Of a stretch of DNA of 64,000 nucleotides, positions 17,381-24,207 are shown in pieces. Source of the stretch: Desulfurococcales archaeon (GTDB lineage Archaea > Thermoproteota > Thermoprotei_A > Sulfolobales > Ignisphaeraceae); the NCBI GenBank assembly GCA_028275745.1, contig JAPWUB010000002.1, positions 1 through 64,000 of the forward strand, in the 5' to 3' direction. The position numbers and the translations under genes are program-made. Position 1 is the first letter of the stretch. Each line of letters begins with the position of its first letter. The notes below the pieces were generated by a model. It did not search any database. It saw only the letters and a program-made list of their open reading frames with translations, and had not been told where the DNA came from.

Positions 17381-17695
17381 TTGGCGATAATCGTGAGCTA
17401 TAGTTGGGAACCTCAGTGGATTAGAAAAAAGTTCAAAATTTCTGAGGGGTTAGAGATAGAAACATGCTATGATTCTTCAACAGGTCTTTTGCTCTGCCCT
17501 CTTTGTGTAGACATCTCAAAAATATGTCCTAGTTATACTGAACCAACATCAATAATACCTGAGAATGCGCCTTACTTCTTTTCTATTGAAGATGTGATTT
17601 ATCATATGAAGACACATAGCAGGGTTGAATCAAAGAAACTATATGTAGAGATAGAAGAGGAAGAAGAAACAGAAGAAGAGGAAACAGAAGAATAA
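17381..17695 (+). CDS. Hypothetical zinc-finger-like protein with acidic Glu/Thr tail
   Basis: C-x9-C-x2-C-x6-C plus HMKTHS, tail EIEEEEETEEEETEE; start TTG 17381 or a nearby GTG. Confidence 0.6.
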   Translation: MAIIVSYSWEPQWIRKKFKISEGLEIETCYDSSTGLLLCPLCVDISKICPSYTEPTSIIPENAPYFFSIEDVIYHMKTHSRVESKKLYVEIEEEEETEEEETEE

Positions 17696-21833: not shown

Positions 21834-22223
21834 GTGAGTTATGCATTGCTGAAAGGGGCTAACTGCATGTTAGAAAAACCTATTGAGATAACAGTACTGA
21901 TTGGGTTAGATACAGAGAGTGCTACAGCACTTAGTAATGTTATGAAGGCGTGTGAGGTGCTGATGAAAAACTATAAAATTAAGGCATTTGTAAATCCAGT
22001 TAATCTTTGGCTAGATCCTGTTAAAGCATCAATAAGGAATTTACCAGTAATAATAATAGATAATAAGAAGATACTCTCTGGGTATGCCCCCACAATAAAT
22101 GAACTTGTAAATGCTGTACTTGAGTCCGTAAAGATGAGGAAACGCAGTAATAATGAGCAGCGCTTATATGGCTATACCCCTGAGGAAAACTCCCTCCTAA
22201 ATGTTGCTGTTGTTGATTGGTAG
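21834..22223 (+). CDS. Thioredoxin-fold-like protein lacking CXXC
   Basis: ITVLIGLDTESATALSNVMKACEVL...LPVIIIDNKKILSGYAPTINELVNAVLES pattern. Confidence 0.5.
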   Translation: MSYALLKGANCMLEKPIEITVLIGLDTESATALSNVMKACEVLMKNYKIKAFVNPVNLWLDPVKASIRNLPVIIIDNKKILSGYAPTINELVNAVLESVKMRKRSNNEQRLYGYTPEENSLLNVAVVDW

Positions 22224-22372: not shown

Positions 22373-23440
22373 ATGAAGGTGAAAGGTGTAATAATAGGTA
22401 GTGGATTATCAGGACTGAAATCCTATGCTCTTCTTTCTAAACAATTAGATAGTCCTCCGCTAATTATAGACTTTACGTTTGGAGGAAGCTTAGTGATGCC
22501 CGTCGACATTACAAAATTGAGTCGTGTTGTTCCAAAGGTACCAATATTCATTAGTACTGAACTTGTCTCTTTCTTTCCACACTGTAGCATTAAATGCCTT
22601 CCACTAGAGGTCATAGTACTTAAAGAAGGAGATTTGATAGATAAAGTCAAGGGTTATACAACAATTAATGTGCAAAGGCTTTGGATTTACGAAATCTTAA
22701 AAAAGAATGAAGTATGCTTCCTTATCGAGCCTAATGATTGCATATTCAAATCCCTAAACATTGCTAGTGTCACATCTCTAAATAGAGTGCGGGACAACAT
22801 AAGGAAAATCGATGCGGAACGAAAAAATATAGTTACTTCACAAGGTCTTATAATTGAATACGATTTTATTGTTTATACATGGCCTATTCATAGCCTAAGG
22901 AATATCCTAACCAATATTAGTGACATTTCTGTAAACAAAATGCTTACAACAGTCGATTCAGCTCTTAACTATGTCTCAATATATTCACAGCTATACTTGA
23001 TTAACGAAAAGATTAGTGAACAAAAAGTCAGTGTTTTTGTTCATGGCACAAAAACGTATAGAATGCATACCGCTGTAAAAGTTCCTATAAGTGATAACCT
23101 CTACACCATTTATGTGTTAACAAGCTATTCGAAAAACTATCCTTTGCATGCAGGTATAGGCGAGAAACTATATTCTGAAGCAAAGAGGCTTAGATTAATA
23201 AATCCTGCGACCATAATTGACTATGCCGATGTTAACATAACATACGGATTTCTTGGCGCTGAAAATCTTGATATTGTTGATGAGCTTAGACGTGGGCTAG
23301 GCAATTACAATATACATCTTTTTGGTCGTATTGCTGAGTGGAGAGAATATGATGTGGCAACATTACTTTTAAAGGCGGTTCCAACAATTCCAGAGCTGAG
23401 GTGGGTAATTTTTGAAGATGGAGACCATCAAGAAATGTGA
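22373..23440 (+). CDS. FAD/NAD(P)-binding oxidoreductase-like protein
   Basis: N-terminal dinucleotide-binding VIIGSGLSGLKSYALL; C-terminal IHLFGRIAEWREYDVATLL. Confidence 0.65.
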   Translation: MKVKGVIIGSGLSGLKSYALLSKQLDSPPLIIDFTFGGSLVMPVDITKLSRVVPKVPIFISTELVSFFPHCSIKCLPLEVIVLKEGDLIDKVKGYTTINVQRLWIYEILKKNEVCFLIEPNDCIFKSLNIASVTSLNRVRDNIRKIDAERKNIVTSQGLIIEYDFIVYTWPIHSLRNILTNISDISVNKMLTTVDSALNYVSIYSQLYLINEKISEQKVSVFVHGTKTYRMHTAVKVPISDNLYTIYVLTSYSKNYPLHAGIGEKLYSEAKRLRLINPATIIDYADVNITYGFLGAENLDIVDELRRGLGNYNIHLFGRIAEWREYDVATLLLKAVPTIPELRWVIFEDGDHQEM

Positions 23441-23567
23441 TGAAATCTGTGATAGCATAGTCGTTTGCGATAATTGTGAAGATGAGACATGTGAGGAGAT
23501 CTGCGAAGAAGTCCAAAGCCAGTGCTTATCTATTTGTACTGAATACCTTGAGAAGTCAAATAGCTAG
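23418..23567 (+). CDS. 49-aa Cys-rich miniprotein (METIKKCDEICDSIVVCDNCEDETCEEICEEVQSQCLSICTEYLEKSNS)
   Basis: ATG 23418 to TAG 23565-23567; 8 Cys with three CX3C and one CX2C; overlaps the 3' end of the FAD-like gene by 23 nt; below the ORF-track cutoff. Confidence 0.65.
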   Translation: METIKKCDEICDSIVVCDNCEDETCEEICEEVQSQCLSICTEYLEKSNS

Positions 23568-24207
23568 ACTCTGCCGAGATGTTGTCCACAATCATTTCTG
23601 AATGCTCTATTCTTTCAGCAATAAGCTGTGCCAATTGAATCAACTCTTTAACAACATTAATTTCCACAAACAGCGAATCCTCATATTCTTCCGCTCGCTT
23701 AAGTATCTTCACAAACTTTGGCAAAACATTGAAAGAGAATTGCTCAAAAAGTTTGATGTCTGTTTTAGATAATTTGTCCTTCACACTCATATTCTTTAAC
23801 TTTGATAACCAATATTTAGGTCTTAGGCTACGTAACTGAACCTTTAGTAAGATAACGTCAGGGTCGTCAACGTCCTCACCTGTTGATGCTATATCGTTAA
23901 TAACTGCTTCGAGCTGTGCTATATCGTACTTAAATCTATACCATCGTTGTGTGCTACTCTTATATGAGGTCTCCAGAAGGTTATACTCTCGCTCAAGAGC
24001 TCTCAATAATAGTGATGGATTGTACTGAAACCCCGTAGAGAGAAGCCTCTCAACAAGCGTTTTATAGTCAAAGTCTCCTAATGTGGTCTGCCCCCGCAGT
24101 CTATTTTCTTTAGCTATAGCTATAGCTGCCTTTATTACGAGCAGAAACTTCTGCCCATATCTCTGATATGCATCAAGAACAACGCTACGCAATGCTGCTA
24201 CTTCCAT
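23530..24207 (-). CDS. Conserved hypothetical helical protein (225 aa)
   Basis: Intact ORF, helical/coiled-coil composition. Confidence 0.65.
   Translation of the reverse strand: MEVAALRSVVLDAYQRYGQKFLLVIKAAIAIAKENRLRGQTTLGDFDYKTLVERLLSTGFQYNPSLLLRALEREYNLLETSYKSSTQRWYRFKYDIAQLEAVINDIASTGEDVDDPDVILLKVQLRSLRPKYWLSKLKNMSVKDKLSKTDIKLFEQFSFNVLPKFVKILKRAEEYEDSLFVEINVVKELIQLAQLIAERIEHSEMIVDNISAESSYLTSQGIQYK

Follow-up and report, generated by a model that had tools for sequence, protein, structure and literature searches.

A family-restricted archaeal miniprotein with eight invariant cysteines, predicted to fold as a helical hairpin and possibly metal-binding

Does a 49-codon open reading frame, overlapped at both ends by larger genes, encode a genuine protein, and what might eight cysteines accomplish in so short a chain? 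These questions are raised by positions 23418-23567 (+) of the window, i.e. the whole 64,000-nucleotide stretch analysed here, which corresponds to contig 103 of a 1.37-Mb genome (75.5% complete). Translation of this frame, the stop codon being included in the coordinates, yields METIKKCDEICDSIVVCDNCEDETCEEICEEVQSQCLSICTEYLEKSNS, a 5.6-kDa protein with a net charge of -11 and a pI of 4.05, harbouring CX3C pairs at residues 7/11, 25/29 and 36/40 and a CX2C pair at 17/20. The original prediction, which had described a very short and acidic peptide with cysteines at positions 7, 11, 17, 20, 25, 29, 36 and 40 (three CX3C and one CX2C) and a 3' end running into an antisense gene, agrees exactly with this translation, and the overlap is real, the antisense ORF (23530-24207, -) sharing 38 nt with the gene. 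A second overlap, absent from that prediction, joins the 5' end of the gene to the same-strand flavoprotein ORF (22373-23440) over 23 nt. Even when three mismatches were tolerated, the window contained a single instance of the eight-cysteine DNA pattern, and 100 shuffled versions contained none; neither a signal peptide nor a membrane segment was seen by inspection of the protein.

The simplest alternative is that the frame is spurious, open by chance between the flavoprotein and antisense genes, as its length of only 49 residues and the overlaps at both ends would allow. The first search for homologues covered 60 relatives and was then repeated across the order (214 genomes) with a profile built from 13 members. 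Of the family's 18 genomes, 13 gave strong matches (E 1e-17 to 1e-21), namely the window genome (G000), G001-G008, G010, G012, G015 and G017; these carriers, heat-loving Ignisphaera-type archaea, comprise 10 of the 11 genomes of the window's genus and three from other genera. The original prediction was to be abandoned if close relatives had lost the frame or the cysteines; instead, all 13 homologues keep the frame and the eight cysteines with all seven spacings identical (C-x3-C-x5-C-x2-C-x4-C-x3-C-x6-C-x3-C), and there are no indels across the 34-residue cysteine core, in proteins of 45-55 residues. The eight cysteines are the only invariant columns of the alignment, all 104 cysteine positions being kept, while their codons alternate between TGT and TGC. 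Nucleotide differences among the 13 homologues amount to 992, 616 and 1829 at codon positions 1, 2 and 3, respectively, and dN/dS for the closer pairs ranges from 0.025 to 0.27 (closest pairs: G004/G005, 0.025; G010/G003, 0.081; G006/G005, 0.088; G004/G006, 0.123), distant pairs having been left out owing to near-saturation of synonymous sites. Values so far below 1 point to a protein-coding gene under purifying selection. Furthermore, the miniprotein recurs at unrelated loci in G001, G002, G008 and G012, so its conservation is no by-product of overlapping neighbours.

Two further observations speak for a chance frame: the gene is missing from one complete genome of the same genus (G009), and in the G002 homologue (L013, G002:C1 about 34255) none of the codons ATG, GTG and TTG occurs in the stretch from the preceding in-frame stop to the first cysteine, which may mean that translation begins at ATA or that the sequence contains an error. 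Against them stand the same eight-cysteine spacing in 13 species, loci lacking both flanking genes included, and the close-pair dN/dS values below 0.3 together with the third-position bias. Conservation at the unrelated loci refutes the spurious-frame reading, which we regard as extremely improbable; judged by sequence comparison, the frame is a real gene that codes for a protein, is present in one copy, is confined to the family and evolves under purifying selection.

The restriction to the family was evident at several scales. Profile matches elsewhere in the 214 genomes of the order were weak fragments, and a set of 398 genomes spread across the phylum gave no further convincing member, the weak matches lacking the cysteine pattern. 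Candidates in G020, G233, G256, G224, G009 (at 740417) and others were rejected because they had no eight-cysteine pattern, contained stops or appeared to read through another feature. No relatives were found in viral contigs by alignment scan, nor in plasmids and phages by tblastn; the bare eight-TGY DNA pattern gave at least 120 matching stretches on viral contigs and was dismissed as too permissive to be meaningful. The G009 genome (1,875,953 bases) holds neither a copy of the miniprotein nor a relic of one. At G009:C1:79480-79650 the flanking genes are syntenic and the miniprotein is missing between them; the thioredoxin-like, flavoprotein and 225-aa genes are all kept, the flavoprotein and 225-aa genes being only about 83 nt apart, and the miniprotein is thus dispensable in at least one species.

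AlphaFold2, supplied with seven family sequences, modelled the window protein as a helical hairpin with a mean pLDDT of 92.5 and helices at residues 2-14 and 23-47 (DSSP). Placing a member from another genus first gave the same pLDDT (92.5) and helices at 3-14 and 23-44, the two predictions sharing one alignment and hence not being fully independent. In the window model, helix 1 (residues 2-14; 23421-23459, +) bears the first CX3C, C7 and C11; the turn (residues 15-22; 23460-23483, +) holds the invariant C17-x2-C20; and helix 2 (residues 23-47; 23484-23558, +) carries C25/C29 and C36/C40, all four no more than 60 degrees away from one face on a helical wheel. The six helical cysteines fall within +/-40 degrees of one direction on their respective helices and belong to an amphipathic repeat, C-x2-h-C-x2-h, that occurs three times (C7-I10-C11-I14, C25-I28-C29-V32 and C36-I39-C40-Y43). 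Positions 10, 14, 15, 28 and 32, which flank the cysteine face, are hydrophobic in all 13 members, and the opposite faces are acidic. C7/C11 and C25/C29 constitute a twin CX3C (CX3C-x13-CX3C) in antiparallel register, and they are expected to face each other because both cysteine pairings sum to 36 (7+29 and 11+25), as the helix boundaries imply. In an idealised hairpin built with i+j=36, the CB atoms of C7-C29 and C11-C25 lie approximately 3.6-4.4 A apart and the four residues form a compact cluster, whereas C36 and C40 (i/i+4) are 6.4 A apart and reach no other helix cysteine of the same chain; register and orientation were imposed on this model, which serves as a consistency check only. The predicted arrangement, C7/C11 opposite C25/C29, C17/C20 at the turn and C36/C40 distal on helix 2 of an antiparallel two-helix hairpin, is of high confidence, and it bears out the previously suggested likeness to helical-hairpin twin-CX3C proteins.

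How far does this likeness extend to characterised proteins? The miniprotein gave no significant match to Pfam, NCBIfam, PHROG, PDB sequences or Foldseek (PDB, BFVD), and no published description of it was found in literature whose coverage mostly excludes subscription journals. The closest architectural parallel is offered by the mitochondrial small Tims (Tim8/9/10/12/13), helix-turn-helix proteins with a CX3C on each helix facing each other, which can take up Zn in the reduced state or form two disulfides (PMC3759932). The defining arrangement, CX3C-x(n)-CX3C on two antiparallel helices, is present in the miniprotein as C7-x3-C11-x13-C25-x3-C29 on the AlphaFold2 helices. Unlike the small Tims, however, which have four cysteines, the miniprotein is archaeal, cytosolic, approximately 49 residues long and very acidic, with eight cysteines that include an extra CX2C in the turn and a third CX3C on helix 2. 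Sequence homology to Tim8/9/10/13 was absent from Pfam and PDB sequences (profile A2), and Foldseek against the PDB returned nothing below E=5.6 and no Tim among the 12 matches listed. Since neither homology nor fold match was obtained, membership of the small Tims is not claimed; the likeness is one of architecture only, kinship being unsupported by sequence or fold match.

Other families of cysteine-rich proteins resemble the miniprotein more remotely. Helix-borne CXXXC pairs facing a helical core are shared with Csp copper storage (DUF326) proteins (PMC5171941), but these are four-helix bundles with 13-19 cysteines, in contrast to a two-helix hairpin with eight, and DUF326 was matched by one of the 13 members at E=0.49, which does not place the miniprotein in that family. 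A TIGR04453 (Lepto_8Cys) similarity also concerns a small eight-cysteine protein and is the only NCBIfam model touched by several members (best E=0.026). The window protein scored 13 bits against a curated cut-off of 34 bits, none of the 18 genomes exceeded the cut-off, and the model was rejected. Hits of the same weakness came from the E. coli and B. subtilis control genomes and, in G003, from a reading frame lying antisense to a longer ORF, and the similarity is therefore one of composition. Retroviral-type CCHC zinc knuckles follow the pattern CX2CX4HX4C, and the segment C17-x2-C20-x4-C25-x3-C29 comes near to this spacing but has C for H, x3 for x4 and its second half in a long helix; no zinc-knuckle model in Pfam matched the miniprotein. 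The 2[4Fe-4S] ferredoxins are characterised by CX2CX2CX3C(P) repeats, from which the miniprotein differs in spacing, and Fer4_3 gave a best E of 1.2, so that it does not fall within this group.

The genomic neighbourhood provides a possible functional context. The flavoprotein gene (22373-23440, +), resembling UDP-galactopyranose mutases and amine oxidases (E=1.7e-9 for family profile A5 with UDP-galactopyranose mutase in the PDB), is recognised by no Pfam model. By synteny, it adjoins the miniprotein gene in eight of the 13 carriers, belonging to two genera (G000, G003, G004, G005, G006, G010, G015 and G017), with a gap of about 870 bp in G006 and convergent orientation in G017. In the remaining five (G001, G002, G008, G012 and G007) it is not adjoining; the G007 miniprotein gene, next to the 225-aa gene, is located where its contig ends, and the missing flavoprotein may be an edge effect. 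A flavoprotein is present in 12 of 13 carriers vs one of five non-carriers (Fisher one-sided 0.008, uncorrected for phylogeny and genome incompleteness). The partnership is not obligatory, given the five carriers without an adjoining flavoprotein and the G009 genome, which keeps the upstream pair without the miniprotein. That pair comprises the flavoprotein gene and, preceding it, a gene for a thioredoxin-fold-like protein without conserved CXXC (21834-22223, +; TIGR00412 E=4.5e-4, below cut-off; alignment A4), in which GLDxxS stands in place of CXXC; the pair is seen again in a large part of the genus and, it appears, in G019 of another family. The candidacy of this neighbour as reductant of the miniprotein cysteines is weakened by the lack of a conserved CXXC. 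A TATA-like element, CTTTTAAA (23365-23372, +), lies within the 3' end of the flavoprotein gene, approximately 45 nt before the miniprotein ATG, and such elements occur 57-70 nt before the first cysteine codon in seven of 12 upstream regions (shuffle mean 2.1). It is possibly the miniprotein's own promoter, a weak indication because in several genomes the element also encodes flavoprotein residues.

On the opposite strand, the convergent 225-aa gene (23530-24207, -) is order-wide, with counterparts in 54 of the 60 relatives; its product has no Pfam or NCBIfam match and, from this distribution, appears as a conserved crenarchaeal protein of unknown function. Its convergent overlap with the miniprotein gene is itself conserved, at 38 nt in G000, G003 and G010, 32 nt in G004-G006 and 16 nt in G007. 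Elsewhere in the window, the ORF at 17381-17695 (+) encodes 104 residues, cysteine-rich in the middle and acidic in the tail, and a similar ORF occurs in a different family of the order (L041, G151).

Eight invariant thiols, six on one face of the predicted hairpin and two in the turn, with acidic outer faces, imply either metal-thiolate sites or disulfides. Of the readings considered, the most likely is that the miniprotein is a cytosolic, acidic, metal-binding thiolate hairpin, an account we favour only tentatively, with a disulfide-stapled hairpin as its close rival. The interior of the hairpin, lined by the eight obligatory cysteines, would hold Zn2+, Fe or Fe-S, or Cu+ as the soft metal in sites of four thiolates each. 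One of these would be intramolecular and formed by C7/C11/C25/C29 or, in zinc-knuckle-like manner, by C17/C20/C25/C29. A second site would be completed by dimerisation, since C36/C40 lie too far along helix 2 for the remaining cysteines of the same chain. Precedents exist for both geometries: reduced twin-CX3C hairpins bind Zn 1:1 via all four cysteines (PMC3759932), and CXXXC pairs on helices form the Cu(I) sites of Csp3 (PMC5171941). Two points favour a metal: the i/i+4 pair C36/C40 is too widely spaced for a disulfide yet well suited to bidentate chelation, and none of the 104 cysteines has been lost. In the weaker part of this account, the miniprotein might serve the UDP-galactopyranose-mutase-like flavoprotein as a small metal-carrying or adaptor partner. 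A bolder version, which we consider rather unlikely, has an independently evolved archaeal cytosolic twin-CX3C family, with added loop CX2C and third helical CX3C, forming dimers in which tetrathiolate clusters hold several metals (Zn, Fe-S or Cu) and acting as the dedicated metal or electron partner of the flavoenzyme.

The same cysteines could instead be oxidised, since the crenarchaeal cytosol is rich in disulfides (PMC3177088) and the protein disulfide oxidoreductase PDO is encoded in 16 of the 18 family genomes. In that case PDO would form C7-C29 and C11-C25, a C1-C4/C2-C3-like pairing as in oxidised small Tims, without any metal, C17/C20 and C36/C40 would provide a further, perhaps redox-active or intersubunit, pair, and the product would be a small heat-stable adaptor or chaperone-like protein; this is a strong rival, somewhat less probable than the metal-thiolate reading. 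The exact antiparallel register of the twin CX3C and the even number of cysteines in every member agree with it. It is opposed by C36 and C40, which, on a continuous helix, cannot pair mutually and have no intrachain partner, so that an intersubunit bond would be needed. In thermophile proteins, moreover, disulfides that add stability are often not shared by all homologues; here every cysteine position is retained. An unlikely third reading is a store of thiols akin to metallothionein or Csp, buffering Cu+ or another soft metal independently of the flavoprotein, with the neighbourhood reflecting ancestry only. The TATA-like element in seven of 12 upstream regions, the five carriers without an adjoining flavoprotein and the CXXXC-lined helices reminiscent of Csp3 would suit such a role; the mere eight cysteines in rigid spacing do not, as cysteine numbers vary in Csp storage proteins (13, 18 and 19; PMC5171941), and neither does the DUF326 search, with its one insignificant match.

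Overall, the analysis describes a real, previously unmodelled, family-restricted, cysteine-rich protein that is predicted to be a helical hairpin and for which a cofactor and role are proposed here. A sub-threshold ORF has thereby become a defined family, at least 13 members strong and marked by an exact motif; its proteins are short and confidently modelled and hence easy to test, and the case demonstrates that gene callers can miss short archaeal genes overlapped at both ends by their neighbours. Were the disulfide-stapled form to apply, the family would supply a prokaryotic cytosolic twin-CX3C protein outside mitochondria; if the miniprotein is metal-binding, as favoured here, it would represent a minimal natural cysteine-lined hairpin, close to de novo metalloprotein designs.
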